Shown here in pieces: positions 36,058 to 53,494 of a DNA stretch of 64,000 nucleotides (the first letter of the stretch is position 1; every line of letters starts with the position of its first letter). The notes beneath the pieces were generated by a model. The model did not search any database. It was not told the DNA's origin and worked only from the letters and a program-made list of their open reading frames with translations. The translations under genes and the position numbers were made by a program. The stretch is from Capsulimonas corticalis (GTDB lineage Bacteria > Armatimonadota > Armatimonadia > Armatimonadales > Capsulimonadaceae), in the NCBI RefSeq assembly GCF_003574315.2, contig NZ_AP025739.1, positions 6,882,001-6,946,000 on the forward strand, given 5' to 3'.

Positions 36058-36064
36058 GAGATCT

Positions 36065-36141
36065 TGGTGGGCGATGAGGGATTCGAACCCCCGACCTCCT
36101 CGATGTGAACGAGGCGCTCATTACCCAGTTACAGTACCCAA
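36065..36141 (-). tRNA. tRNA-Val(CAC), intact 3' part only; probable attachment site
   Basis: On the minus strand, bases 36119 down to 36065 give a perfect tRNA 3' portion: GAGC of the D stem, anticodon arm CCTCG-TTCACAT-CGAGG (anticodon CAC), variable AGGTC, T arm GGGGG-TTCGAAT-CCCTC, acceptor strand ATCGCCC, A, and encoded CCA. The part that should hold the D-arm 5' side and the 5' acceptor (36120-36141) does not pair properly (GGGTACT against ATCGCCC has two mismatches; no GCTC). So this is probably the 3' fragment left at one end of an element integrated into tRNA-Val, and not a working tRNA. Confidence 0.6.
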
Positions 36142-39572: not shown

Positions 39573-40541
39573 CTACGACTCATTGTATATCCTGATCATC
39601 CCAGCGCGGATAAGGCGTTCGCTGGGGTCTTTCCCCACGCCGTAGAAGAGTGCGCCGCGAACACGTAGGTCATCCTGTTGCTGCTGTGGCAGGCCCTCGA
39701 TCATGGCCCAGGTGGCATCAGCATCCTCTCGCTGTCGCGCCACTGCATCATCGGCCTTGGCTGCGCGCTTTGTGTCTGCGGCCTTCTTCTGCTCAATTTC
39801 GGCGAGCCAGGGGTGTTTGACATTGTTGCGGATCATCGACGCCAGCCAGCCACCGACGTTTCGGAATGTCTTCTTCTGCGTCCTGAGCGCCTTGAGCGCC
39901 GCCAAATTGTGCTTCACGATCTCTGGGGCTTCTTGGACCATCTGCGTCGCCTGTTTACTATCCACGCCTTCGGCGGTGAGCGCGGCGAGAAGCTCCCTCT
40001 GCTCCGAATCCAAATCAGCCTGAACCGAAACAACAGAAGAATTTTTAGCCATCGGTGACGCTGGACGCGGTGGAGACGCCGCGCGGCGTCCGCTTTCTGT
40101 TGTTGTAATTAGATTCTTAGTTTCACAGACAGAGTCTAAGATTATGTGCGACATCGGTGGGACATTAGTCACCTCGGGATGCGACATCGGTGGGACATCG
40201 GTGGGACATTGGGCGACCGATTTACGCGCGTTTTTGATGGCGGCATGCAGAGCCCTGCCAGCTTCCGTCAGGTGGATACGGCGAGGACGGGGTTTGCCGC
40301 GCAAAATTTCGACGCGAACCAAGCCCGCCGCCGTCAGCGTAGCGTTCCAGCGGGGGATGGTGCGGCGATTAATGCCATATTTTTCGGCTAGGTATGGATT
40401 AAGCGCATAGCAGTATCCGTACTCGTTTTCAGTCAATAAGCCGACTAATCCAAAAAAATTTTTGATATCGCTTGACATCTCTGTCCAAGCGGAGTAAACG
40501 GTCGCTAACACGTAAATAGCGCCTTTCTTGATTCGATTCAA
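39573..40541 (-). CDS. Winged-helix replication-type protein
   Basis: 322 residues if the TTG at 40541 is used (overlapping the stop of a small upstream ORF as TTGA), or 301 from the ATG at 40478. Residues about 20-110 read as a winged helix (KNFFGLVGLLTENEYGYCYA, LAEKYGINRRTIPRWNATL, RRIHLTEAGRALHAAIKNA). The C-terminal half has helical repeats (GVDSKQATQMVQEAPEIVKH) as in DnaD/RepA-type plasmid initiators, with PMSH twice in a linker (VPPMSHPEVTNVPPMSH). A DNA-binding replication or regulatory role on the element is likely; the exact family is not certain. Confidence 0.6.
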   Translation of the reverse strand: MNRIKKGAIYVLATVYSAWTEMSSDIKNFFGLVGLLTENEYGYCYALNPYLAEKYGINRRTIPRWNATLTAAGLVRVEILRGKPRPRRIHLTEAGRALHAAIKNARKSVAQCPTDVPPMSHPEVTNVPPMSHIILDSVCETKNLITTTESGRRAASPPRPASPMAKNSSVVSVQADLDSEQRELLAALTAEGVDSKQATQMVQEAPEIVKHNLAALKALRTQKKTFRNVGGWLASMIRNNVKHPWLAEIEQKKAADTKRAAKADDAVARQREDADATWAMIEGLPQQQQDDLRVRGALFYGVGKDPSERLIRAGMIRIYNES

Positions 40542-40588
40542 AATTGGCCGCAGGATTGAGCCGATGTCCTAGCAGACATCGGCTTTTT
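40507..40588 (+). ncRNA. Candidate antisense RNA over the start of the replication-type gene
   Basis: On the plus strand, opposite the gene at 39573-40541, TTGACA (40472-40477), a 17-base gap and TAAACG (40495-40500) make a plausible promoter. A perfect hairpin GCCGATGTC-CTAGCA-GACATCGGC (40560-40583) followed by TTTTTCTT ends such a transcript. The only use for a plus-strand terminator here would be such an RNA of about 80 bases, covering the start region of the gene, as in copy-number control of plasmids. No experimental support. Confidence 0.45.
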
Positions 40589-40732
40589 CTTGTCTGCGAC
40601 CATGGCCGTAAGCATCCCAGCCATGGGACATTTACCGTCTAATACTTCATGATCTGTATAGCAATAATCGCGATCACTCCATGACCACCCCAAGTCTTTC
40701 AGCGGCTTCTTCCCGCTGCCTCTGCTGCACAT
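40538..40732 (-). CDS. Small ORF coupled to the replication-type gene (possible leader peptide)
   Basis: 64 residues ending at a TGA that overlaps the next start (TTGA). Sequence features: DLGWSWSDRDYCYTDHEVLD and CPMAGMLTAMVADKKKP, with four Cys. A perfect AGGAGG (40752-40747) is best placed for another overlapping frame, a 21-residue ORF from the ATG at 40739 to 40674 (MTDVQQRQREEAAERLGVVM, then E). One of these may be a leader peptide that controls the gene behind it. Weak evidence for either. Confidence 0.35.
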   Translation of the reverse strand: MCSRGSGKKPLKDLGWSWSDRDYCYTDHEVLDGKCPMAGMLTAMVADKKKPMSARTSAQSCGQF

Positions 40733-40741
40733 CAGTCATTT

Positions 40742-41766
40742 TCATCCTCCTCTTATTTTCGCCCTACGAATCTAACATAGCGCTTTTCGTACTTTTCTTC
40801 ACGGGATTTTCAAAACTTTTTTTCGGCGGCTCACCAAATTACAATCACGCCTAACTCGAACCGCAGGTCCATCTGCGCAGCAGCGGCCCCTACGCTTTGG
40901 GCGACGATAAGCTCAAGTTCAGCCCCTGAGGGCTAGACAAGTGCCCGATCCAGCTGTGCCGCCGATCATTTCCCCTTCCATATCTTTAACTTACCGCTTT
41001 CCAAATTTTTCTTCATCGTCAATCCTGGTAATTTTTCGTTGAGCGTTTTAAGCTGCTTTTTAAAAGTGTTAGACGCAACCATTTTAGAAACAATTGACCC
41101 CCTACCTTGGCGGAATTTGTCGCTTCGATTCGACTTAATTCGCAAAATCTACCTAAGAATGATCTTTGAGAGGCTGATATTGAGGTCTGACCTACTCAAC
41201 CAAGCGATGGCAAAGTATGATGAGTACGACTTGACATGCATTCGTCGTTGGAATATTCCACTCGAATCACCGCGTGACGCGCCAGTCAGCAAACGGCTAC
41301 TCCTGATGATTGTTATCTCGCCTTCAGGCTCCACATCGATGGCGAGGCAGGATTAATTTTCGTAACTGCGGAATTTGTAGCGAACATTAATCAATTAGCA
41401 CGAAAATTAATTCGTTTAACTGGTCAAAATTTCGGGTTATCTAGGAACACAACGCTTGACAAATCGTCACCGTGTTCCTCATAGAAACATGAATCTTCGA
41501 ACAATAAGCACTTTATTCGGTGGAGCAGGCGTTCACGTGTATTCTCGTCGATACATGTCGCGGGAAGTCGTGAATCGTTTCCGCCACAACTCTAATGTCT
41601 TATCGATTGCCGATCCAGTCATAGCACCAGGGCACACACACTCAATAACGGGTGGCCGCTGAACCAAGACTATATTCATCATATTCCGAGCAAGGGGGCT
41701 TCATAACCATTGCGGAAAATATTACCATCACGAGGAAACCGAAGATCAGCAAGAGAGCGCCCCACC
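40742..41766. other. Gene-poor stretch, about 1 kb
   Basis: No convincing gene. Bases 40856-40930 read LEPQVHLRSSGPYALGDDKL then KFSP-stop, which looks like the last residues of a lost gene. A possible 38-residue peptide runs on the minus strand from 41082 to 40966 (MVASNTFKKQLKTLNEKLPG...) without a ribosome site. Frames at 41039-41356 (+) and 41149-41334 (-) overlap each other, lack patterns and contain a palindromic TGGAATATTCCACT (41249-41262). The rest is AT-rich and appears non-coding. Confidence 0.5.
41249..41262. promoter_or_regulatory. Palindrome TGGAATATTCCA, site 1 of 5
   Basis: TTGGAATATTCCACT; the right arm keeps the longer AGTGGAATATTCCACT form, the left does not. Lies in the gene-poor stretch about 500 bases ahead of the gene at 41767. 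Confidence 0.5.
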
Positions 41767-42735
41767 ATGAACGATACAGACCTAATCGACCAAATAATCC
41801 AACTCGTCGCCAAAGCCCGAAACCTCGACATCTGCGGCAAGCACGCAGCCGCCGACACAGTTGACCGCAGGATCGCCTCTGCACCGCGTATTAGCATAGC
41901 CCAGGTAAATGCACCACCCGCGGCGCAGTCTCAGCAACAGCCGACAACGGCATATCCATCTGCCGCCAATTACCCGCCTACGAGCAATTTTATGGGTAGC
42001 CTGTGGACCGATTTGAACAACAAGGTAGGCGCATGGACGAATCAGGCGGTCCTGCACAACAATCAGCGCAACATCCAGATGCTGTCAGAGAGAATCGTCG
42101 GCTTCCGACAGGACGTAGCCCAGAACGCCAATCAACTTCCGCGCGAACTGATCCGATCGATGTGCGCAGTCCTTGATCAGATGGCGCAACAGATCGCCCC
42201 CTACGTACAGCGTCGCTCTGCGGGGCGAGTTCGGACACTAAGGCGCATACGATATGGCGGAGTTGGGGATATTTCAGGGCTTGAGGGGATGATCGATAGT
42301 TTGAAGACCCTGACCGAGCAAATCCTGGGCAACGTGAATCCAGTGCTGGAACGCTCTCAATTGTCGCAGATCGCCATTCTCGAAAACTATCTCGGCCAAT
42401 TTGAGGAAGGGGTTGCAAGCGGGTACGCAGCCAATTATCAGGCACAGCAATATGCACATAACAGTCAGTACGATTATCCCATCGCCTCGCAAACTAAGCC
42501 CGCGGAGGGTCTTTCACCTCGCCCACAACAGCAGCAATCGGGCGACTGGTACTCTGATAACGGCACCACACGCGAGCTGTTTTTGGCGCGCTGCAGAGCA
42601 TGGGGGGATGCCAACAACGGGATTAGCGCACTGAAAGGTCATCTGGAAGATAATTCGATTCCGCAAGATGTTATGTCTGATGCAATTCGTGATTACGGCG
42701 AAAATGGCAAGCCCAATGGTTTTGCGCCGAGCTAG
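41767..42735 (+). CDS. Hypothetical protein, low-complexity N-terminal region
   Basis: 322 residues from the ATG at 41767; the frame extends to 41710. N-terminal 35 residues are helical (NDTDLIDQIIQLVAKARNLD), then a Gln/Pro/Ala linker (PPAAQSQQQPTTAYPSAANY), a helical core of about 140 residues (VPVLERSQLSQIAILENYLG-like), another Gln-rich linker and a C-terminal helix pair ending DAIRDYGENGKPNGF. No signal peptide. Looks like a structural or phage-like protein of the element; family unknown. Confidence 0.6.
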   Translation: MNDTDLIDQIIQLVAKARNLDICGKHAAADTVDRRIASAPRISIAQVNAPPAAQSQQQPTTAYPSAANYPPTSNFMGSLWTDLNNKVGAWTNQAVLHNNQRNIQMLSERIVGFRQDVAQNANQLPRELIRSMCAVLDQMAQQIAPYVQRRSAGRVRTLRRIRYGGVGDISGLEGMIDSLKTLTEQILGNVNPVLERSQLSQIAILENYLGQFEEGVASGYAANYQAQQYAHNSQYDYPIASQTKPAEGLSPRPQQQQSGDWYSDNGTTRELFLARCRAWGDANNGISALKGHLEDNSIPQDVMSDAIRDYGENGKPNGFAPS

Positions 42736-42847
42736 TATGTGTCTGCGGCGCACGTCGTTTTCCTGTACCTCAACGTGCGCCGCAACTACGGTTGCCATAG
42801 GATCATCAATACGAGAAATCCGACCGACTTCCTCGCCACGCTATCAC

Positions 42848-43411
42848 TCAATTGATAGGCGTGTTGCCACGCAGTCCCGCAACAGTACCGTCGCTCCAAT
42901 CGACAGTGCAGATAGTGTCCTCAGCACCATCACCGTAACGCACCCGTCCACTCATTTGAACAGTGTCGATCATACGTGACATCGACTCGACGATAACCGT
43001 CTTCGTAGTTGCATCCGATACCGTGAGGTCCAAAACCGATCCGTGAATACGATACAAGGAAGCACGAAGCGATTCGTATGTCCAATCCGCCACAGGCCAG
43101 CTTGGGATCGCCGCTAAATCCGCGAGATCGACAATTACTCCCTTGCCGTTGTGGCCATCCTCAACCAAACGGGCCGTTAGCAGTCTATACAGCGCAACAT
43201 CCAGTTGGGTAACAAGCCCACGCGAACTAGCCAATATTTTTTTATCTCGCTGAACAACGCGCCCGCTCGGCAGGCGGATGAGGTCAATTGTTTCCCCCAT
43301 ATCTGGTTCGCCGCGCTGTTGCGTTGCGGCGGCTGCGTCCAGTAGGTGCAGGATATCTTGGGCTGTCAATTGGTCACTTGGGCGCTCTTCGATGGGCTGG
43401 TCCGTGGTCAT
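42848..43411 (-). CDS. Hypothetical protein, possible winged-helix initiator-like
   Basis: 187 residues. The middle (TQLDVALYRLLTARLVED, VIVDLADLAAIPSWPVADWT, ESLRASLYRIHGSVLDLTVS) has the rhythm of a winged-helix replication-initiator domain: short helices, then a two-stranded wing. It stops soon after, so it is shorter than plasmid Rep proteins (about 300). The palindrome at 43541-43552 lies 130 bases upstream. Assignment is tentative. Confidence 0.5.
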   Translation of the reverse strand: MTTDQPIEERPSDQLTAQDILHLLDAAAATQQRGEPDMGETIDLIRLPSGRVVQRDKKILASSRGLVTQLDVALYRLLTARLVEDGHNGKGVIVDLADLAAIPSWPVADWTYESLRASLYRIHGSVLDLTVSDATTKTVIVESMSRMIDTVQMSGRVRYGDGAEDTICTVDWSDGTVAGLRGNTPIN

Positions 43412-43537
43412 AGCTTGGTTTTCCTTTTTGCGATTGGCACATTATTTTCGTTCAACATTTTCATAGCGGCAGCTTTTAACTATTTGAGGATAAGTGCCAA
43501 GTGTTGAGGCAAGCCTCTCAGTCTGCCGATCACACCC

Positions 43538-43555
43538 CACTGGAATATTCCACTG
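43538..43555. promoter_or_regulatory. Palindrome TGGAATATTCCA, site 2 of 5
   Basis: ACTGGAATATTCCACTGG, between the start of the gene ending at 42848 (start 43411) and the 3' end of the gene ending at 43660. Could act on the promoter of the former. Confidence 0.55.
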
Positions 43556-43659
43556 GAAGAATCGGCGCGTGTCACGCAGGATCGTCTACTATTTTCTAGC
43601 GTAGTAACGATCTTAGGTGAACGGATGTTCCTTCTAAAAAAGAAAGAATACGCGGCACC

Positions 43660-44625
43660 TTACCCCACGCACAGCCCCACTATCCGCTCGACGACATCAC
43701 CCAAATGCTCCTCGATCTCTCTGCCATCGATCAGCATTCCGCGCCAGTCTGCTGGGCGAAGTGCAAGTATGGCGTCGCCAGCGAGGCGAGCGGCATCGTT
43801 GCCCGACCAGTTTTTTACCTCGATCATGAGGCGAGCTTCGGGGATCGTTAGGTCGGCGTAGATATTGTCGTGCGGATCGCCAATCTGCGTCTCGGTTGAT
43901 ACGTTCATTTGAGGAAGAGCTTCAGAAAGAGCGCGCCCGAGTTTCGCCACAGTGTTCGCCTCGAAGGTATTGGCGATTGTGTTGGCCGCACTCGATGGAC
44001 AAGCGGAGAAACTATCGAAGGCACCAGATAACTCGGAATGCTGCTCATCAGGATCGAAATCCCCAACATCATCCCAATCGCCTTTGAGTTCTGGAGCGCA
44101 CATAATCATAGCCGTAGCTATTTGATTTTCGAGCTCGAGTCTGCTGACCTCATGAGCGCGAATGTCTCCCGCGTGGCGCAGGATGACCCGATTTTTACGC
44201 GTGGCGCTTATAGTCGTTGCATCAACATCGAGCAGAAAATCGACCTTCCCAAATGGATCACCCTGCCCCACCTCTGTTGATTTCGACCACTCCCACATAG
44301 CGTCCATATATCGAGACAGCTCCTCACGACCAACAACCAATGGGCGCAGTTGTTGCCGTACTGCAATCTCTGGCCAGCTCGGAGTCGGCGCGGCGGGATC
44401 ACGCAGCCATGTGACCAGTTCCGCCCCTGCACGCGCCAATGTTACTGCCGTGTTAGAATCGCCAGTAAGCCCCGCCGCAGTCGCTTCGGCGGCCATTTTA
44501 TCTGCCCAAGCCCGCGCGAGGCTTTTAGCGTCAAAAATAAGGAGCGGCCAAGCGGAGATGGTAATTGAGCGGATGCGGCCTTCGCGTAGGATCAGGCCAG
44601 TGATCGACGAGTTGTTGATATTCAT
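43660..44625 (-). CDS. Protein with C-terminal PD-(D/E)XK-like nuclease motif
   Basis: 321 residues from the ATG at 44625. The C-terminal 100 residues hold DNIYADLTIPEARLMIEVKN, i.e. D...ExK with a following Trp, the core of PD-(D/E)XK nucleases, preceded by a helix with a conserved-looking Glu (ALSEALPQMNVSTETQIGD). The N-terminal 200 residues are helical with no known motif. Such proteins cut DNA in restriction, repair or mobile-element defence. Catalysis is a prediction only. It starts 34 bases after the membrane protein gene upstream ends. Confidence 0.55.
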   Translation of the reverse strand: MNINNSSITGLILREGRIRSITISAWPLLIFDAKSLARAWADKMAAEATAAGLTGDSNTAVTLARAGAELVTWLRDPAAPTPSWPEIAVRQQLRPLVVGREELSRYMDAMWEWSKSTEVGQGDPFGKVDFLLDVDATTISATRKNRVILRHAGDIRAHEVSRLELENQIATAMIMCAPELKGDWDDVGDFDPDEQHSELSGAFDSFSACPSSAANTIANTFEANTVAKLGRALSEALPQMNVSTETQIGDPHDNIYADLTIPEARLMIEVKNWSGNDAARLAGDAILALRPADWRGMLIDGREIEEHLGDVVERIVGLCVG

Positions 44626-44658
44626 AAAGTCTTTGCATGCTGTTAGGCGAGCCCGCAC

Positions 44659-45519
44659 CTAATTCGTTGCGATACTCCCGTCAGGGTTAAATTGGGGCGG
44701 CGTGGGCGATGGTATCGTCGTGTCGGCCTGACCGTATCCATCGGGGGTATTTGCAACTGGAGTCCGAAAAATATTTGGCGGCGGCGGCGCATCCGCACCT
44801 TCTGGCATCGCAGAAACGGTGATGGTTCCAGGCCCAGTCGGCGTGTCTGCTGAAATCTGAACATTGTTGACCTTGAGATTGTTGACATCAAAGCGCAGCC
44901 CAGTGGCGGCAGTAAATTCCGACAACGGCACGGTGAGAACATAACCCGCTGCCAGTCCAGTACCTCGACCGCTAAAAGGCAAGCCGCCATTGGGATTAAT
45001 TGTTACTCGTATATTGCTCCATGCGTAGTTGTTCTGGTTGGTAATCACCAGTGTCATTCCTCGATCACCGCGCATCTGGTTGTAGCCAACTTCCGCCTTG
45101 GCCGCCAATTGGACGGACGCTGGCTGAGGCACTGGCTGATATGCAGCTTGTGGCGTGCGTGGAGACACCTGCGACGACGTGGGGGCAGTATAGGACGACG
45201 ACTCGGCATGCGGGAGTGATTGCGCCAATGAACGTGTGTAGTGCAACTGAGACGTGATTGCAAACCCGATGAGAAATATGGCAAGTATCGCAAAAATCGA
45301 GGCTTTGGACGCTGGATTTGCGCCGTTCCATTTGCTGGTCGCCTGTCGGATCGCCTGTTCCTGCTGGGTCGGAGCGCGTGGCGGCCAGTATTCTGTTCGG
45401 TTTTCGCCTTCCTCGCCTGCGGGAGGAACAGGGTGTTGGAAAACCTGCCCGCACTTTTGACACATTTGCAATCCAGGCATGAGGGTCTGCCCACACTGAG
45501 CGCAATAAAAATAGACCAT
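44659..45519 (-). CDS. Zinc-ribbon membrane-anchored protein
   Basis: 286 residues. An N-terminal zinc ribbon (FYCAQCGQTLMPGLQMCQKC), a Pro-rich linker, one membrane helix at about 72-92 (SIFAILAIFLIGFAITSQL), a low-complexity Ser/Pro stretch, and an extracytoplasmic beta domain (MTLVITNQNNYAWSNIRVTI, LTVPLSEFTAATGLRFDVN). This zinc-ribbon-then-TM layout is common in Gram-positive and Armatimonadota-like proteins of unknown role. The C-terminus is Pro-rich. Confidence 0.7.
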   Translation of the reverse strand: MVYFYCAQCGQTLMPGLQMCQKCGQVFQHPVPPAGEEGENRTEYWPPRAPTQQEQAIRQATSKWNGANPASKASIFAILAIFLIGFAITSQLHYTRSLAQSLPHAESSSYTAPTSSQVSPRTPQAAYQPVPQPASVQLAAKAEVGYNQMRGDRGMTLVITNQNNYAWSNIRVTINPNGGLPFSGRGTGLAAGYVLTVPLSEFTAATGLRFDVNNLKVNNVQISADTPTGPGTITVSAMPEGADAPPPPNIFRTPVANTPDGYGQADTTIPSPTPPQFNPDGSIATN

Positions 45520-45552
45520 AGATCGATTTCCCCAGGGTCAATCCAGCTTTTC

Positions 45553-45996
45553 CTACTGCCTGATAAATTTCACAATAGTACCACTGCGGTTAGTGTAGGA
45601 GAGGGATTGCCCATTGTCGGTGAGTTTCAGTAGCATAACCTCTCCGTTGTCATTGGAAGGTGATAATGTAGAAAGTCCTCGTCCAAGCGGAGTCGCCTCG
45701 CCACCTTCCAAACGCACCGTGTCACCGATCAAAGTAAATTTCGCCCTTCTCAAAATGCAGTCGCCATAGGTCGTATTTTTGGCCTTGTCGTAACTCGCGT
45801 TTAGAAAAACGTTAGCTCCCAGGCGATCAAATGACATGGCCATTGATGACCCTGTCGAGCCTTCAATATAAACACCATGAAGCGTCGCCACCGACACCGT
45901 CCCGCATCCCACCGCACATACAGAGAAGACAAAAACGATCAGGCTAATTACCATCGGTATGGACAGCCGAAGTCTCGTGCTCTTAAATTTGTTCAA
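45553..45996 (-). CDS. Putative small lipoprotein
   Basis: 147 residues. The N-terminal hydrophobic stretch ends in VCAVGC, a lipobox-like site at about Cys31. The mature part is beta-rich with a DUF-like pattern (HGVYIEGSTGSSMAMSFDRL, GDTVRLEGGEATPLGRGLST, LSYTNRSGTIVKFIRQ), similar to small copper-resistance/DUF-type lipocalin-like domains but not identified. It precedes the zinc-ribbon gene by 33 bases on the same strand, so they may be co-expressed. Confidence 0.65.
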   Translation of the reverse strand: MNKFKSTRLRLSIPMVISLIVFVFSVCAVGCGTVSVATLHGVYIEGSTGSSMAMSFDRLGANVFLNASYDKAKNTTYGDCILRRAKFTLIGDTVRLEGGEATPLGRGLSTLSPSNDNGEVMLLKLTDNGQSLSYTNRSGTIVKFIRQ

Positions 45997-46181
45997 TTGT
46001 ATGCCTCTCTGTTGTTGGCAAGAGCCCCTCCTAAAACGACCGTACTAGCATATACATATTATACCTGTTGCCTAGACCGTAGCACACAATACCTTCCATT
46101 TTTTTATAATTGGAGACATTGAGTACCCATGAAGCACATTCCACAGGAAGTCCAAAAGCGTTAATCCGCATACGAGGGCGT

Positions 46182-46454
46182 ATGAACGTCTGCGGGGAGC
46201 GGGTAAAGTTGCGCCGTGAAGAGCTGCAACTCACCCAAAGTGAATTGTGTGGCCGATTGGCCACAGTAACTCACGGAATATGGAATGGTGACCGACGAGA
46301 CATTCACAGGGTTGAGCGAGGAACCCGAAAAGTTTCCGACGCTGAACTCATTGCTTTGACAATCTCATTGGAAACCACGCCACAATGGCTCCTAATTGGC
46401 GAAGGTACCGAGGAGGAAGAGACAGGTTTCGCTCGGCCCATGTGGACATTCTGA
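46182..46454 (+). CDS. XRE-family helix-turn-helix regulator
   Basis: 90 residues from the ATG at 46182; the frame extends to 46110. MNVCGERVKLRREELQLTQS is the first helix pair of a Cro/CI HTH, followed by LATVTHGIWNGDRRDIHRVE and SLETTPQWLLIGEG. The insert GIWNGDRRDI between HTH helices 2 and 3 is a variant seen in some element-borne XRE proteins. Likely a repressor of element genes; divergent from the lipoprotein gene. Confidence 0.8.
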   Translation: MNVCGERVKLRREELQLTQSELCGRLATVTHGIWNGDRRDIHRVERGTRKVSDAELIALTISLETTPQWLLIGEGTEEEETGFARPMWTF

Positions 46455-46619
46455 TTCGGGGGCACGCCAACAGTCTAAATACATGCTGCGGACGCAGCAA
46501 CGCTCAACCATATTAGCTAACGCCACGCAAGGTGAACGCACCATCCGTTTTGCCGCCATGGCCCAGCTGATCAGCCAAATCTATACAGTGGCTTGACTAT
46601 CAACATGTCTAAATATCGT

Positions 46620-46642
46620 TATTCCATATAATATCTGGAATA
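46620..46642 (+). promoter_or_regulatory. Inverted repeat TATTCCA-N9-TGGAATA, candidate operator
   Basis: TATTCCA (46620-46626) and TGGAATA (46636-46642) face each other 7 bases before the XRE gene's ATG. The same heptamers, back to back, form the palindrome TGGAATATTCCA found at five other places in the island, so one regulator may bind both. Confidence 0.5.
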
Positions 46643-46649
46643 CATATAA

Positions 46650-46937
46650 ATGTCAAGGGTATCTTATACTCATGGGGTGAAAAAGACGTTGTACTCCGCC
46701 GAGCAAAAAGTGTTTCTGGGCCTGTTAAGACAAATTCGCCAGAATGCTGGCCTCAGTCAGCAGGAAATTGCAGACCGCCTGGAGGTGGCTCAGAGCCGCA
46801 TCTCCGACTATGAGCGCGGCGAACGTCAGCTTGACCTCATGGAACTGCGGCAGTATTGCGCTGCTGCAGAAACTTCACTGGAGGAATTTGTGCGTCGGTT
46901 CGAGGTAGGCATCAGAGATTCGACGCCAGAGGCGTAA
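46650..46937 (+). CDS. XRE-family helix-turn-helix regulator
   Basis: 95 residues. LRQIRQNAGLSQQEIADRLE and VAQSRISDYERGERQLDLME form a typical Cro/CI HTH, then a short helix dimer region. A GTG at 46677 is an alternative start after the first ten residues. The inverted repeat right upstream suggests autoregulation. Likely a phage- or ICE-type switch protein. Confidence 0.85.
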   Translation: MSRVSYTHGVKKTLYSAEQKVFLGLLRQIRQNAGLSQQEIADRLEVAQSRISDYERGERQLDLMELRQYCAAAETSLEEFVRRFEVGIRDSTPEA

Positions 46938-46987
46938 ATCCCGCAGCCTTCTTAGCGACGCCTGCAATTCTGCGCACCACCGTAGCG

Positions 46988-47524
46988 TCACTTAAACCAC
47001 ACCCCAGCAATGTGCCAGCCCAACTCCCTCACCAGCTCTCGGAGCATCTTCCTCCTCAAATAGACAGCCACATCCGACCGATCAGGATCGGGACCAATAA
47101 TCCACGCGCGGATTCTGGAATCTTTGGCGCAGCACATCATCGACATAGCGATGTCATATCGTAGCGGCCTACGCAGAATCATCATTTCCTCGACTTCCCC
47201 GCCCGCCGCGCCGCAGACGATGTCCTCGCTACCGATCTCGACTCTCTCATCAATGCGCCTATCTGCGGCGGCAACGGAAACCGTCGCTCGAAGCAAGATT
47301 CCAGCGTCGCACGACACTTCAAAACTGATCGCCTCGCAGCCATTCCCATCCCCCACCCGCTGATTTTTGTCATCCACCCGCGCCCACAGCTCTCCGAACA
47401 CTGTGTCCAGGACCGCGCCGCCGTGATGCATGGCGCAGGCGGAGCTCGTGGGTGATGTGCAGTAAGACTTACCTGGCTGTTCAAATTCGACACGGTCGCT
47501 TCTCGTCTGGGTCATCAATCTCAT
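46988..47524 (-). CDS. Hypothetical protein
   Basis: 178 residues (ATG at 47524, or 47515). Looks real by amino-acid make-up: alternating beta-like stretches (AISFEVSCDAGILLRATVSV, MMILRRPLRYDIAMSM) and charged helices at the end (RRKMLRELVRELGWHIAGVW). No motif recognised. Divergent from the primase-like gene, with a hairpin-rich gap of 330 bases between. Confidence 0.5.
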   Translation of the reverse strand: MRLMTQTRSDRVEFEQPGKSYCTSPTSSACAMHHGGAVLDTVFGELWARVDDKNQRVGDGNGCEAISFEVSCDAGILLRATVSVAAADRRIDERVEIGSEDIVCGAAGGEVEEMMILRRPLRYDIAMSMMCCAKDSRIRAWIIGPDPDRSDVAVYLRRKMLRELVRELGWHIAGVWFK

Positions 47525-47723
47525 CTTTCAGTTTCACATCAATTTACTCTCCTTCTTTTATCGTGCCTTTTGGGCCAATATCGCACCGCAATTATTTTTC
47601 ATGGCCTGGTGCGATTCTGCTCGAAAACGCACGAAAAAGAATTAGGGCCAGGATGGAATTCCCCTGCCCCAGTAATACACATCAGCGACCTGTGATCTGT
47701 CAGTCACAGAATGCTCAGTATTT

Positions 47724-47842
47724 ATCATCGGAGTGGCGATACAGGCTGCACCGATGATTATCAATGTCGTGTCTGACAGCGCGACTGACGAAAAACACCG
47801 TGTGGTGAGAGAGCTGTATCCTCCCTCATCGCGCGGTGTTTT
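47724..47842 (+). other. Hairpin-rich leader between divergent genes, possible origin or attenuator
   Basis: ATCATCGG (47724-47731) pairs with CCGATGAT (47751-47758). Further on, AAAACACCG (47792-47800) pairs with CGGTGTTTT (47834-47842), with inner pairing GTGAG/CTCAT, and is followed by TTGTTGT 12 bases before the primase-like start codon. This could be a terminator/attenuator in the leader or part of a replication origin. The gap 47525-47853 has no gene. Confidence 0.5.
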
Positions 47843-47853
47843 GTTGTCGTCCT

Positions 47854-49767
47854 ATGTCAATAGATTTCTTAGATTGGCCCGATTGGGTGCTAGAAGACGA
47901 TCCTAATTTCGTTGAAATAGTGCAGCCGATTTATATGCCCCCCAATACTCCTATCTACGTCCCCCCGACCTGGAGTCCTGATCCATTTGCATGGCATCAA
48001 GAACCTTTCGGGGCCGTGTTGGAGCCTGAAGGCTACGAGATCATGCAAACAAAGAAACGGCGCACTACGGCAGATTACGCCCAACAAATGCCAATGACGT
48101 ATACAGCAGCAATGGCCATTTTTGAATCAGTCGTCGATCCAAGTGTATGGGGTAAGCATCTCGTTACGGACAAGCCATCGAAATTCGATGATGCAGGGCG
48201 TTCGCTGCAGGATGTATCGTGGAAGACCATTATTGCAGGTAAATGGATTGACGGCAAGAATGGCAAACGTGGATTTCCGCAGCAACCGATGAAGTTGCTT
48301 GATGTCATTAAGACTCTTGCTGATCCCGATCACTGTAGCATCGGAAACATTGATAGATGGGATCGTGATCTCACCCATTACAAGGTCCGACATATTCGGA
48401 TTGATATTGACCTTGATCGGGTCTTTGAGCGGGACGATATCGAAGCACTCCGCAGTGAGATTCAGCTGGTAAAATGCATTTTTGCCGAATTTGCCTTAGA
48501 AGCTCATGTGATGCGCACGGGTAATCGAGGAATACAAGTTACCGCACCGATCCGACCTCTGCCGTTGCAAATAGCCGCAGTGTTGGTCGAAGCCATCCAA
48601 TCAGTGCTGCGTAGTGCTTCACGCTATTGGATCGCCAAAGACTTTCAGAGCAATCTGGACGGCATTTTGCGCCTGCCTCTTGGTAGGCACGCCTGGAGTA
48701 AATCAATATCGTGGATGCTTGGTGACGATGGATCAATTTTGCCGCTCGAAGAGCAGATCAATGCCGTCCAGAGTGCTTTCGGGCGAAATGGCGATCTCGA
48801 TGATACATGGACCCACAACATTACGGAAATTATCGCAAAACAACGACACAACACATCCGCCTCCGACATCCTCGCAGCGCTTGCCTACGAGATGCCAGCA
48901 CACCCACTCATCGAAGCGTGGAGGCGCGCTAAGTCGCTGTATTGCAAAGATGAATCCAGTATATACGCTCAACCTAGCCAAGTCATTCAGCAAATCTCAA
49001 CGCGCGAGGATTCTAAGGCAAGCATAAAACATATTCCCCGCCCGCATGGCGCGCCGATTAATAAAACCAAGGCGTGGCAGATATTAAACGCGGGATTTGA
49101 GCCTGGCGAGAGCTATGCATATTACACCAATCAAACGTTTGCTGGTGTCCGTGGCAAAGACGCAATTGGGTGTGCGATCACCGCATTTGGTGGGAACTGT
49201 GATCTGGCGAGAGAGTGGCTAGAGGATCAGGCGCGAAGTATACCTGGGTCCACGGAGAGAGCGATCTCTGATCGACTTGGTTTGATTGGGCGACTAATTT
49301 ATAAGAATAACACCTATGAGCGCCTCCAGAAGCAAGTGGTCGCCAAGAAATCCAAAGATTTGGCGGGTGAGGTATTGGCGGAAGAGACCCTTTTAGCGAA
49401 TCAGATCGTGGCGTTCCTTCCTGGACTTCGGAAAGCTTCAAGTTGCCGCACGAAAACTTTTCAACCCCAGGCGCTCGTCACGATTCGGCATATCCTGGAA
49501 CTAATGCAACTCGCCTGTCGGATCACTGATGATGGATTGATCGATCTGTCGTTTCGGACCCTGGATGCGGCGATAAAGGATCGCTGGCCAGAACATGCCA
49601 CAAGCGCCATGGATGTGTCTCGCCAAATGGAGTGGATTGTGGAAGGGGAGAGATGCTTGTTTCAGGCTTTGAGGGTAAAGGAGATGCCGACTTCCAAATT
49701 CGATCCGATTCGGTATGCGCTTGGAAATGACTTTATTGCCATACTCGATGTAGTCGATGGTAGATAA
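47854..49767 (+). CDS. AEP-superfamily primase-like protein
   Basis: 637 residues from the ATG at 47854. The first 150 residues have no motif. At about 190-290 the archaeo-eukaryotic primase pattern appears: HIRIDIDLDRV (hhhDhD metal site), MRTGNRGIQVTAPIRPL (sGxxGhhh, with Gln where His is usual) and ILRLPLGRHAWSK (the R.P.G.H strand). The rest is helical. In mobile elements such proteins prime replication, often next to an origin, which fits the hairpins just upstream. The Gln for His change makes catalytic activity uncertain. Confidence 0.6.
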   Translation: MSIDFLDWPDWVLEDDPNFVEIVQPIYMPPNTPIYVPPTWSPDPFAWHQEPFGAVLEPEGYEIMQTKKRRTTADYAQQMPMTYTAAMAIFESVVDPSVWGKHLVTDKPSKFDDAGRSLQDVSWKTIIAGKWIDGKNGKRGFPQQPMKLLDVIKTLADPDHCSIGNIDRWDRDLTHYKVRHIRIDIDLDRVFERDDIEALRSEIQLVKCIFAEFALEAHVMRTGNRGIQVTAPIRPLPLQIAAVLVEAIQSVLRSASRYWIAKDFQSNLDGILRLPLGRHAWSKSISWMLGDDGSILPLEEQINAVQSAFGRNGDLDDTWTHNITEIIAKQRHNTSASDILAALAYEMPAHPLIEAWRRAKSLYCKDESSIYAQPSQVIQQISTREDSKASIKHIPRPHGAPINKTKAWQILNAGFEPGESYAYYTNQTFAGVRGKDAIGCAITAFGGNCDLAREWLEDQARSIPGSTERAISDRLGLIGRLIYKNNTYERLQKQVVAKKSKDLAGEVLAEETLLANQIVAFLPGLRKASSCRTKTFQPQALVTIRHILELMQLACRITDDGLIDLSFRTLDAAIKDRWPEHATSAMDVSRQMEWIVEGERCLFQALRVKEMPTSKFDPIRYALGNDFIAILDVVDGR

Positions 49768-49877
49768 ATTTGCTTGGGGATTGGGCTCGCCAGGCTCGCT
49801 CCCCTCCCCAAGCGGCGCTCCCTCGGCGCTCGCAAGCTCACAACCGAGAGATCGCCAATTGGAGGGAATAGAGGTTG

Positions 49878-50099
49878 GTGATCTTGGAGTTAGACTCTAA
49901 TGATAAACAAAGAGTAGGATGTGTAACAAGTTCGGCTAGGCCCGATGATATTGATTCTGATGATAAACACCGAGTAGGACGTGTAACAAGTTCACGCTCT
50001 GGGAAGGACTCGATCTATTGTGAGTATGTCTATTGCCGACGGCTAACGCCACAAGGTCCAGAATGTATCCACGATCAATCGATGGCAAGTGTTTTGTAA
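49878..50099 (+). CDS. Small ORF with internal 60-bp tandem duplication
   Basis: About 73 residues. Two near-identical segments (DSNDKQRVGCVTSS and DSDDKHRVGRVTSS) are followed by YCEYVYCRRLTPQGPEC, a Cys-rich tail. Several base differences between the copies are silent or conservative, which favours coding. GGAGGGA lies about ten bases upstream of the TTG/GTG starts. Function unknown. Confidence 0.4.
   Translation: MILELDSNDKQRVGCVTSSARPDDIDSDDKHRVGRVTSSRSGKDSIYCEYVYCRRLTPQGPECIHDQSMASVL
49901..49993 (+). repeat. Two direct repeats with 60-base period
   Basis: TGATAAACAAAGAGTAGGAT (from 49901) recurs as TGATAAACACCGAGTAGGAC (from 49961), and both continue with GTGTAACAAGTTC. 33 bases each, exactly 60 bases apart, six differences. 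Confidence 0.8.
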
Positions 50100-50137
50100 G
50101 GCGACACTAAGTTGAGGACGTTTCTAACGGTTGTGCC

Positions 50138-50153
50138 AGTAGAATATTCCACT
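50138..50153. promoter_or_regulatory. Palindrome AGTGGAATATTCCACT, site 3 of 5
   Basis: AGTAGAATATTCCACT, one mismatch from the consensus. Lies in the 245-base gap between the small ORF at 49878 and the methyltransferase end. Confidence 0.5.
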
Positions 50154-50294
50154 GCGATTTACAGGTCAGCCCGCAATCGGCCAAATTAGCGATTCTAAAG
50201 CCCCAAGTAGGTTGGTCATGACCATTGAGGTGTGACACGTCACAAAAGGCGGTCTCGTTTGAAACTGGAGTGCCCTGAACATGATCCCGCTCTG

Positions 50295-50320
50295 GCCTCA
50301 GTGGAATATTCCACTGAGGC
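50295..50320. promoter_or_regulatory. Palindrome AGTGGAATATTCCACT, site 4 of 5 (26-bp perfect)
   Basis: The consensus is extended by GCCTC/GAGGC to a perfect 26-base palindrome. It lies 25 bases beyond the 3' end of the methyltransferase gene. Confidence 0.6.
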
Positions 50321-50344
50321 TACGTCTGCTCCCAGGCACACTAC

Positions 50345-51514
50345 TCACCCATCATTCATTTCCACCAACAACGGCATCAAATAATTTCGACTGATCCACT
50401 CCACCACTGGCACACACACCGCGTCTCCAAAGCCAAATAGGGCCTGATTCCGCGGAACATCAATAACATATTCTTCGGCTCCCATTAGTCGTGCGCACTC
50501 GCGCGGCGTGAGATTGCGAACCGAAACCGTGCCAAATCCCGCCTTGATCAGTATCTGCTGAGAGCTGCCGCCTTTGGGAGTGCGCAAACAGCCCGCGATG
50601 CCATCGGATCGAAGTTCCGCCACATACACGCCATTTCTCGTGCGCCGAAACACTGTGCCGTAGCTCAATTTGTCGTTTGCGATCATTTTTTCGGCAACCT
50701 CGCGATGGCGATCACTCATCTGGCTCAGCAGATACATCGAGCGCTTCTCGTCCCACCACTCGCTCGCATTAGCTGGCAGGTCTTCCAATATTTCGTCCAG
50801 CGTCGCCGATCCACTCGGTAGCTCAGGCAGCACTCGCAACCGCCAATTGATGTCGAGGTGGCTGGAGATAAAGGAGGTCAGCGCCTTCGGTCTCAGCTTA
50901 CTCAAGAAGGTGTCGGTTTTGACTTCAATGGGCAATTCCTGCTGAACCGCTATTACGAAGAGGCGCTGGCGCGATTGCGGAACGAACCATGCTGCGTCAA
51001 TAATCACGGCGTCCACAGCGTAGCCAAGATCGTTGAGCGCGCACATAGCGCGATGGAAGTCTTGGCCTCCATGGGAGGTCAGGAAGCTCGGGACGTTTTC
51101 CAGCAGCACAATCGGCGGCCTTCGGGTTTCCATTCCCTTCAGGATATTCAAAAATCCCCAGAAGGCTCCCGACTGGGCCCCCGCAAGCCCTGCGCGCCCG
51201 CCAGCCAGCGACAAATCCGTACAGGGAAAAGACGCTGTGGCGAGAGTAACCGTCGGCACGGTTGCGGGATCAATCAGATGGATGTCTCCGAGCACAAAAT
51301 GATTTGCAGGGTAATTGGTAGCATACATTTGCCACTTCTTCGGGTCGATATCGTTGGCGAATTCTACAGACCAGCCCGCTCGCTCCAGCCCCATGCGCAT
51401 TAAGCCGATACCCGCGAAAAATTCGGCAACTGTCGGCGGAAGCGAGTTGTAATGGTTGGTAGCGGCGGGGTGGTTGGTGAATGTTGCAGCGGTCACCACA
51501 GGTTCGTTCATCAT
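50345..51514 (-). CDS. C5-cytosine DNA methyltransferase
   Basis: 389 residues from the ATG at 51514. All main motifs are present: I (VAEFFAGIGLMRMGLERAGW), IV with catalytic Cys (ASFPCTDLSLAGGR), VI (LLENVPSFL), VIII (QSRQRLFVIAV) and X (QALFGFGDAVCVPVVEWI). The target-recognition region is between VIII and IX (about 230-320). It methylates cytosine at an unknown site. No restriction enzyme gene adjoins, so it looks like an orphan enzyme of a mobile element that guards DNA or controls expression. Confidence 0.93.
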   Translation of the reverse strand: MMNEPVVTAATFTNHPAATNHYNSLPPTVAEFFAGIGLMRMGLERAGWSVEFANDIDPKKWQMYATNYPANHFVLGDIHLIDPATVPTVTLATASFPCTDLSLAGGRAGLAGAQSGAFWGFLNILKGMETRRPPIVLLENVPSFLTSHGGQDFHRAMCALNDLGYAVDAVIIDAAWFVPQSRQRLFVIAVQQELPIEVKTDTFLSKLRPKALTSFISSHLDINWRLRVLPELPSGSATLDEILEDLPANASEWWDEKRSMYLLSQMSDRHREVAEKMIANDKLSYGTVFRRTRNGVYVAELRSDGIAGCLRTPKGGSSQQILIKAGFGTVSVRNLTPRECARLMGAEEYVIDVPRNQALFGFGDAVCVPVVEWISRNYLMPLLVEMNDG

Positions 51515-51696
51515 GCTCTCAATTCGCGATTTGAAATGACAGGTAGCCCGCAGCACTGCTGACCCTGTCTCGACTACCTTATACAGATTGAATGCTCTGG
51601 CGAATGAGATGAACGAAATGAAAGCCTCAGGTCAGGAGATTGTCGAGTCATGGATGGGCGGTGAGGTATAGATTGGGCATCCGTCTTCAAACGAAC

Positions 51697-51720
51697 CTCA
51701 GTGGAATATTCCACTGGTCG
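51697..51720. promoter_or_regulatory. Palindrome AGTGGAATATTCCACT, site 5 of 5
   Basis: CCTCAGTGGAATATTCCACT from 51697. Lies between the divergent methyltransferase (start 51514) and the gene at 51815, i.e. in a shared promoter region of 300 bases. Confidence 0.6.
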
Positions 51721-51814
51721 GATATGCTTTGGCGAACCCATTCTGCCAGGTAAAATATTTCTGTGGGATTACTCGTCCTCAGCAGCGAGCTCACTTCAAA
51801 GGCCAAATGACCGT

Positions 51815-52252
51815 ATGCCCAATCCACCGTCCCCACCCCACTGCGAATCCCAATCCGCGATAGCCACCCTTGACCGTCTCCTTTTCGCTGGCAACGGCAC
51901 TGGCGAATACTCCCAGGACTGGGACTTGATCGTTACCGATCCAAATCGTCTCTACGAATTTTGTGATCTCTACGAGCGCGGCGACCTGGACTCAGACACG
52001 AAATTCGCTTTGATGCTGGTGATCCTTGTCTCCCTGGACGATGGAGGGCGCGACGGCGAAATTGCTGGCGACACGGGGTCCGTGGCGCGGATCGAAGAAC
52101 TTCTGCGGGCAGATTTTGTGCTTCACTTTCACACGGTGCGCCATTGGGCGTTGCTAGGCGAAAGCGATCTGAAGGAGACGTTTCCCATCACACCGATGAT
52201 GCAGCGAATGTGGGATGATGGTTTTAGAGAAGAATATCGACAGTGGCTGTAG
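51815..52252 (+). CDS. Hypothetical acidic protein
   Basis: 145 residues from the ATG at 51815; the frame extends to 51701 over the palindrome. Acidic and helical: AIATLDRLLFAGNGTGEYSQ, EFCDLYERGDLDSDTKFALM, VLVSLDDGGRDGEIAG. The ending MWDDGFREEYRQWL suggests an antirestriction- or immunity-like small acidic protein, but no family is recognised. Two more small hypothetical genes follow in the same direction. Confidence 0.55.
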   Translation: MPNPPSPPHCESQSAIATLDRLLFAGNGTGEYSQDWDLIVTDPNRLYEFCDLYERGDLDSDTKFALMLVILVSLDDGGRDGEIAGDTGSVARIEELLRADFVLHFHTVRHWALLGESDLKETFPITPMMQRMWDDGFREEYRQWL

Positions 52253-52310
52253 TATCCTAAAAGTATCGTGCGTCGAAAAACAGCACGTCGTGCCCCTGAA
52301 ACAGAAAGCA

Positions 52311-52727
52311 ATGAACAAAAACCCAATCGGGAAATCTTGGGACTTCATCGAAAGCACCAATTTTGAGTGGGATCAAGCAAACAACGAGCAGCGTGCCTAT
52401 TTCAGGGATGTTTGCGCATCGTTTCTCCGCACTGTCTTCACCCCGCCGCCTGGCTATGCCATTGAATCTATTGAGGCCGAATGGATGGGTAAATTCCCTG
52501 TCGTTGCCCTCGGATGCGATTTTGACATTGAGCCGATCCCAAAAGCGGCGTATGAAGTGCTCATTGAAACCATGCGCGCGGCGCTGGATCGGTTCATAGA
52601 CTCCGTGGATTGGGATGTGATCTCGCACATAAAGTTCGGCTCAACGACGCCAGAAGCAGGTGATCGAGAATTTGGTTCTGCCGCCGTAACATGGCTGGAG
52701 GGCTTCAGGCCAGGCCGTGCGATATAA
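52311..52727 (+). CDS. Hypothetical protein
   Basis: 138 residues from the ATG at 52311 (frame extends to 52215). Sequence features: KSWDFIESTNFEWDQANNEQ, PPGYAIESIEAEWMGKFPVV, and helix YEVLIETMRAALDRFIDSVD. It resembles small immunity-type proteins in length and acidity. Family unknown. Confidence 0.55.
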   Translation: MNKNPIGKSWDFIESTNFEWDQANNEQRAYFRDVCASFLRTVFTPPPGYAIESIEAEWMGKFPVVALGCDFDIEPIPKAAYEVLIETMRAALDRFIDSVDWDVISHIKFGSTTPEAGDREFGSAAVTWLEGFRPGRAI

Positions 52728-52763
52728 ATGCTGAATGGGTTTGCCTTTACTTGTTGCAGCGAA

Positions 52764-53069
52764 ATGGAAATTATCATAGGATTAGAATATCGCGTCGAAT
52801 TCACGCACGGTTGAAGAAAACCAATTGATCAGGTACTCCGCTGCGCGCCTCATTTCGCACGCTACGAAGAGCAGTACGGCAATTACGAATACCGCACGCC
52901 TGAACATGGCGACTTCAACAAAATGCCTGACGCAGTGATGGCGGTGAGAGAATGGGGCGTGTATTTATGCGAATACGGGAGCCGCGACGTTTTCAAAGAC
53001 TTGCTGAATTATCTGTTCTGGCACGTGAATGGCCTGGGTCAGAAGTTCGTCGTTGATGACTTGGAATAA
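52764..53069 (+). pseudogene. Small gene broken by an in-frame TGA
   Basis: From the ATG at 52764 one frame runs for 102 codons to TAA at 53067, with a single TGA at 52812-52814. After the TGA it reads PIDQVLRCAPHFARYEEQYG, PDAVMAVREWGVYLCEYGSR and NYLFWHVNGLGQKFVVDDLE, which has clear protein character but no good start codon before residue 40. So the first 16 codons plus the later part look like one gene cut by a nonsense change. Unknown family. Confidence 0.45.
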
Positions 53070-53113
53070 GGGCTACAGCGACTGGCAGTTATCGTGAGGG
53101 ATCGAGATCACCT

Positions 53114-53494
53114 ATGCATGACAAGGAATTTGAAACAGTTTCAGCTCTCCCCTTCCAGGAGCGCTACGCGCATTTCATCAAGCGCGTTGCCGACCATGAA
53201 CACCTTTGGAGCCTATGGAACGATGGCTGGGTATTGGCCGCAGACAACGACAGGCATGAAGTCGTTCCAGTATGGCCGCACGAACGATATGCAGCGGCAT
53301 GCGCCATTGATGAATGGGCTGGTCATACACCACGCGCCATTGACCTAGACGAATGGTTGGAGAAATGGATACCTGGCTTGGAGCGGGATGGGCGGCTTGT
53401 CGTGGTTTTCTTGACGCCTAGCAGCGCTGGCGCCACGGTTACGCCTGAAAATATGCGCCAGGAACTGGAGGATGAGTTGCTGTGGTATGAGTGA
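53114..53494 (+). CDS. DUF2750 family protein
   Basis: 126 residues. It follows the DUF2750 pattern: VSALPFQERYAHFIKRVADH, WVLAADNDRHEVVPVWPHER, AIDLDEWLEKWIPGLERDGR and VVFLTPSSAGATVTPENMRQ. The family occurs widely as a small cytoplasmic protein, often near immunity genes; function unknown. The previous hypothetical genes have the same direction and size class. Confidence 0.85.
   Translation: MHDKEFETVSALPFQERYAHFIKRVADHEHLWSLWNDGWVLAADNDRHEVVPVWPHERYAAACAIDEWAGHTPRAIDLDEWLEKWIPGLERDGRLVVVFLTPSSAGATVTPENMRQELEDELLWYE

Follow-up and report, generated by a model that had tools for sequence, protein, structure and literature searches.

The stretch analysed here (the window) comprises 64,000 nucleotides of the Capsulimonas corticalis chromosome, positions 6882001-6946000 of a single-contig genome of 7,645,051 bases; coordinates up to 64,000 refer to the window and larger ones to the genome. 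Between 41249 and 51713 a short palindrome recurs at five sites, all of them on a genomic island of about 105 kb, here named E1. The site-bearing core of the island contains genes for a replication-initiator-like protein, the proteins Y and X, a zinc-ribbon protein, two XRE-type regulators, a PrimPol-like protein and a C5 cytosine methyltransferase (Table 1).

An exact 12-bp core, TGGAATATTCCA, was found at 41249, 43541, 50302 and 51702, and the copy at 50140, TAGAATATTCCA, has one mismatch to it; the five copies announced in a preliminary description of this DNA are thus present, one of them imperfectly. With their arms, the sites follow the consensus CAGTGGAATATTCCACTG, i.e. CAG-TGGAATATTCCA-CTG. 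The perfect 26-base palindrome reported in that description was recovered as site 4, and all five sites were, as it had held, located outside accepted genes. Sites 1 and 5 occupy divergent gaps, site 2 a tandem gap, and sites 3 and 4 a convergent one, a setting that calls for no promoter. Distances from the sites to gene starts range from about 100 to more than 500 bp: site 1 is 517 bp from the start of an open reading frame (ORF) at 40538-40732(-) and 507 bp from g41767(+), and site 2 lies upstream of Y, 130 bp from its start, and 108 bp beyond the stop of X. A pair of 41-nt direct repeats (88%) with a 60-bp spacing was also seen at 49893-49993, in the gap of sites 3 and 4.

Table 1. Palindrome sites and neighbouring features of island E1, in window coordinates.
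Feature	Position	Strand	Sequence, matches or setting
attL	36060-36119	-	60-bp 3' fragment of tRNA-Val(CAC), identical to attR at 7023222-7023281
Replication-initiator-like protein	39573-40541	-	PHROG replication initiation, 3.1e-06; HTH_36, 5e-05, just under the Pfam cut-off
Site 1	41246-41263 (core 41249-41260)		cgt TGGAATATTCCA ctc; gap of divergent genes
Y	42848-43411	-	30% to N-terminal part of plasmid Replication initiator protein A; no confident Pfam match
Site 2	43538-43555		CACTGGAATATTCCACTG; tandem gap, X(-) / Y(-)
X	43660-44658	-	weak counterpart in island E2, 27% identity, single-comparison E 8e-04
Zinc-ribbon protein	44659-45519	-	common to islands E1, E2 and E3
Second XRE-type regulator	46110-46454	+	weak HTH matches under Pfam cut-offs; 38% to XRE of E3
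Everted half sites	46620-46642		TATTCCA-N9-TGGAATA; upstream of the XRE gene at 46650
Small XRE regulator, candidate binder	46650-46937	+	95 amino acids; HTH_3, 1.6e-13; C.BclI among PDB sequence matches
PrimPol-like protein	47836-49767	+	LigD_Prim-Pol, 3.5e-04, under the Pfam cut-off
Site 3	50137-50154		CAGTAGAATATTCCACTG, one mismatch; convergent gap, PrimPol-like(+) / dcm(-)
Site 4	50295-50320		perfect 26-bp palindrome GCCTCAGTGGAATATTCCACTGAGGC; convergent gap, 32 bp beyond dcm stop
C5 cytosine methyltransferase (dcm)	50345-51556	-	PF00145, 5.8e-50; between sites 4 and 5
Site 5	51699-51716		perfect 18-bp palindrome CAGTGGAATATTCCACTG; divergent gap, dcm(-) / g51815(+)

That the palindrome recurs beyond chance, as had been proposed, was borne out, and neither shuffled nor simulated sequence reproduced it. 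When the 16-mer AGTGGAATATTCCACT was searched with up to three mismatches, five matches were obtained in the window against a shuffle mean of 0.12, and none of 100 shuffles reached five. The bare 12-mer with up to two mismatches gave a less extreme result (five matches, mean 1.76, six of 100 shuffles with at least five). First-order simulation of a 17.5-kb stretch, run 300 times, gave no 12-bp palindrome more than twice, whereas the real stretch has one that occurs four times. As 28.5% of the region 39573-53494 is non-coding under the gene list used, the location of all five sites outside genes has a probability of about 0.002.

The preliminary description had named an even distribution over the genome as the result that would speak against it, and had called for a genome-wide scan. 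Such a spread was refuted, and a host-wide motif was ruled out by the same scan, since ten of the 11 exact copies of TGGAATATTCCA in 7.645 Mb are within two islands. Five are in E1 (the four in the window and 7017544), five in a second island, E2, at about 3.117-3.174 Mb (3119042, 3119906, 3137649, 3156885 and 3169567), and one is elsewhere (4251280). The cores at 3156885, 4251280 and 7017544 are in reading frames and were treated for this reason as chance occurrences, which they probably are: the first two, like a partial match at 3157545, code for the PAS-kinase motif QWNIPE, and the third is inside a NERD-domain gene. The last may nevertheless be a true E1 site, being within the island and matching 15 of the 18 bases of the E1 consensus.

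Nine strong sites are left, five in E1 (one with a mismatch) and four in E2, and six of the nine have perfect symmetry over 18-28 bp. The E2 sites are longer palindromes (perfect over 28, 26, 18 and 20 bp) with the common core and other arms, AAACTC-TGGAATATTCCA-GAGTTT. With up to three mismatches, AACTCTGGAATATTCCAGAGTT has four matches in the genome, all in E2, and CAGTGGAATATTCCACTG has 11, of which six are in E1 (the five sites and 7017541); the centre AATATT is invariant in both islands. The motif belongs to mobile islands only, two of which have the core in common, each with arms of its own. A sigma-70-like gene lies between two of the E2 sites (3119042 and 3119906), and the others are downstream of a GIY-YIG gene and of an integrase gene. 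Two degraded candidates in E2, at 3124680 (6 of 24 positions mismatched) and 3164262 (7 of 24), were not included among the nine, and TGGAAAATTCCA at 6991237 and 6995861, inside ORFs, was also left uncounted. A third island, E3 (1.504-1.524 Mb), has the zinc-ribbon and XRE genes in common but lacks such a palindrome family; a perfect 38-bp palindrome was seen there at 1513671-1513708, beside a transposase-like gene.

The exact core was detected in 33 of 291 genomes of the phylum, C. corticalis included. Flanks were read for 36 of the 48 core sites in the 32 other genomes, and only two of these 36 are part of a perfect palindrome of at least 16 bp (20 bp in G013 and 16 bp in G064); on the sole contig with two core sites among those read (G088:C51), both are unextended. 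With so few genomes carrying the core and so few sites extended, a conserved phylum motif was dropped. Thirteen viral contigs contain the 16-mer and one the E2 18-mer, with one core each in the contig stretch examined, and CWSTGGAATATTCCASWG was found at 75 loci of an 84,980-species collection, again with one core each, where plain arithmetic gives about 60 by chance. Outside the C. corticalis genome, the genomes and viral contigs with flanks examined gave no extended palindrome in more than one copy, and to date the palindrome system is known from C. corticalis alone.

The extent of E1 was deduced from identical repeats of a tRNA 3' end, an adjoining integrase and a lower G+C content, and the size of about 10-17 kb first thought of had to be abandoned. 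The identical 60-bp repeats are 105,162 bp apart. The tRNA-Val predicted in the window (36060-36139) is a fragment with a broken 5' half and acceptor stem; the intact tRNA-Val(CAC), at 7023227-7023301, contains the 60-bp repeat and adjoins a tyrosine integrase gene (7022097-7023095; PF00589, 9.1e-33). Between the repeats the G+C fraction is mostly 0.46-0.55 (range 0.41-0.57), against about 0.55-0.65 outside. E1 is a genomic island integrated at tRNA-Val, at about 6918060-7023281. In the sole genome of the same genus compared (69% complete), one contig carries the left flank (74%), an intact tRNA-Val and then the right flank (92% over 128 bp), an arrangement compatible with an empty integration site.

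E1 and E2 have in common genes for ImuB, DnaE2, SRAP, PAS kinases and type I restriction. A 4.8-kb PAS/kinase-type signalling block, inverted between the islands (6967702-6972483 in E1 and 3158979-3163760 in E2), is, judging from its 99% identity, the product of a recent exchange. The combination of ImuB, DnaE2 and SRAP was observed in three regions of the genome, 6992188-6998394 (E1), 3138189-3144430 (E2) and 6343117-6349415 (near prophage genes); SOS mutagenesis cassettes apparently travel on islands.

Among the genes of the core, the O-like protein, which is initiator-like, has matches only within its own genome among the 291 genomes. Iteron-like GTGGGACAT repeats were seen inside the replication-initiator-like gene (40146-40215), reminiscent of an origin inside an initiator gene. 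The RepA related to Y is encoded in another genome (G252), next to a frame read by eye as ParA-like, and a search of viral contigs with Y found nothing. Upstream of the small XRE gene, the half sites TGGAATA and TATTCCA that the preliminary description had pointed out are real, though in everted order, TATTCCA at 46620-46626 and TGGAATA at 46636-46642 with nine bases between them. They overlap the best promoter-like match of the 40.5-52.5 kb region (TTGACA-17-TATTAT, minus strand, 11 of 12 positions).

The O-like gene also led to a prophage-like region with phage-type genes, at roughly 6.34-6.44 Mb and covering 6355151-6437900, in which another palindrome, TATTGATCGATCAATA, is dispersed; all five exact copies in the genome are in this region. 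The region encodes an 842-amino-acid protein in which a methyltransferase-like N-terminal part is followed by ParB_N and HTH_ParB domains, and a search of viral contigs with this protein found nothing. Around the XRE gene of the region, repeats of the AACAAATTGTT type, recognized by eye, were found and not the dispersed palindrome. Because TATTGATCGATCAATA and a ParB occur together here and the repeats at the XRE gene are of another kind, the region suggests that dispersed palindromes on elements in this genome serve a binder of ParB-like or global type and not an XRE switch. In a survey of 524 kb of the genome, which gave 53 distinct perfect 14-bp palindromes, at least four copies were found only for that of E2 (four) and that of the prophage-like region (five); the 14-mer of E1 is exact only twice. 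Elsewhere in the chromosome, at 4509199-4512492, a second ParB-like protein of 396 amino acids (paralogue at 4510699) was observed, with zinc-ribbon-like cysteine pairs in its C-terminal part and its gene adjoining a penicillin-binding-protein-like gene.

The palindromes of E1 may be the recognition sites of one dimeric, sequence-specific, island-linked DNA-binding protein that would mark the plasmid-like maintenance core of the island, a tentative reading that we hold at somewhat less than even confidence. The symmetric sites would be bound by a dimer, each island would have one binder, and this protein would act independently of promoter position, its sites marking a core of replication, regulation and modification genes. 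The binder may be encoded by the island (an XRE or an initiator-like protein), or it may be a ParB that the host or a different element provides in trans. The repeated signal is probably bound by a protein that has a role in island control or maintenance. The preliminary description had offered a regulator's sites or a partition or replication signal, which was the right kind of answer, as the motif is island-private and replication-initiator-like, PrimPol-like and XRE genes lie in the core; either of the two may hold. Beyond that description, a second island with the same core and other arms was found, as was a prophage-like region with a different palindrome and a ParB.

Several near-identical symmetric sites on one element are what a ParB-parS system would present, and such sites were found. 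On the IncC plasmid R55, 14 scattered parS sites are described, 22-bp inverted repeats in which less conserved arms surround a symmetric core of 14 bp; the island SGI1, with two parS copies, relies on the ParB of the plasmid (PMC10954446). As far as that account goes, an identical symmetric core, less conserved arms, a length of 20-odd bp and scattering over the element are features alike in both cases, and SGI1 is likewise an integrated island, one that takes its partition proteins from another element. The comparison is one of site arrangement, and the ParB binding shown there is plasmid-supplied, whereas the binder of E1 and E2 is putative. The phage-plasmid N15 also has few, dispersed inverted centromere repeats, but it encodes its own partition proteins. 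KorB of RK2, which combines regulator and partition protein, is described as loading on distal OB sites and silencing at long range (PMC11790492); these too are symmetric sites on a mobile element, some of them far from promoters, but E1 and E2 encode no ParB_N protein. The stoperators of mycobacteriophages are similar in being many repressor sites spread over an element, but in the published description they are asymmetric sequences bound by a monomer (PMC9283540), in contrast to the perfect palindromes of the islands.

The main and serious rival, somewhat unlikely in our judgement, is that the sites are ordinary operators of an island-encoded XRE repressor of the prophage-repressor or C-protein type, with each promoter controlled individually. 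Two XRE genes are in the core, XRE genes adjoin the zinc-ribbon gene in E1, E2 and E3, palindromes of 14-18 bp suit XRE dimers, and the gene at 46650 has inverted TGGAATA half sites over the best promoter-like sequence. However, the full palindrome is absent from the promoters of both E1 XRE genes, where just the everted half sites at 46620-46642 were found, and this weakens the simple version in which the two XRE proteins are the binders. The two sites in convergent gaps and the variable distances to gene starts also argue against it, as do the difference (by eye) between the dispersed palindrome of the prophage-like region and the repeats at its XRE promoter, and the lack of a phmmer match between the E2 XRE and those of E1. 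A slim chance is given to the view that the sites are operators for one of the initiator-like proteins (Y or the O-like protein), whose dimers would control replication or copy number from the inverted repeat; Y resembles the N-terminus of a plasmid RepA and site 2 lies just upstream of it, but Y has just one of the five sites nearby and shows no detectable relationship to its candidate counterpart in E2, and a single-sequence structure model of Y was unusable (mean predicted local distance difference test score 41).

Recombination or cassette-boundary sites, for which the chance is slimmer still, are suggested by sites 4 and 5, which form 21-nt perfect inverted repeats around dcm, and by the two E2 sites that bracket the sigma-70-like gene. 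Against this, the remaining sites bracket nothing in common, perfect symmetry would give a recombinase no direction, and relatives in which a segment has been lost or exchanged were not found. That the sites are RNA hairpins or intrinsic terminators is very improbable: 51699-51716 passes one terminator pattern and short runs of T close the E2 arms on the minus strand, but the E1 sites have 0-3 T in the eight bases beyond either arm, too few for a T tract, the would-be loop AATATT is the invariant part in both islands, and Rfam found only tRNA in 36-54 kb. Chance or a host-wide signal is barely credible; it can draw on the further matches in coding sequence (the QWNIPE codons and the NERD-domain gene), but for the nine strong sites it is excluded by the shuffles, the simulations and the island-limited spread.

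Several observations weigh against a dedicated binder of the maintenance core. ParB_N (PF02195) was found at four places in the genome and at none in E1 or E2, and no ParA was noticed in these islands, whose ORFs were partly scanned with Pfam; without a ParB_N protein of their own, the islands are likened to ParABS, as something that would work like it, and are not called one. E1 is at present part of the chromosome, and what partition sites would do there is not obvious; the inverted half sites at the promoter of the XRE gene at 46650 favour a conventional regulator. The palindromes fall outside the DNA blocks common to E1 and E2, so they were not simply inherited together with those segments. 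In the prophage-like region, one-mismatch copies of TATTGATCGATCAATA were found inside genes (6399143 and 6431293), and another far off (69151).

A bolder version of the maintenance-core reading, fairly improbable and drawn by analogy, is that each island has a private centromere or silencer code, and that E1 and E2 depend on a ParB taken from the host or from a different element (ParB paralogues are encoded elsewhere in the genome), hijacking partition as SGI1 does, with the arms tuning incompatibility between islands. If a dedicated binder is confirmed, the sites from which mobile islands are controlled could be recognized by a short symmetric code, in a phylum where experimental genetics is scarce, and the pairing of proteins with arms could be tested directly and cheaply. 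Two related islands in one cell, with cores alike and arms unlike, would then be a natural specificity-switch pair, useful for understanding how co-resident islands avoid interference.

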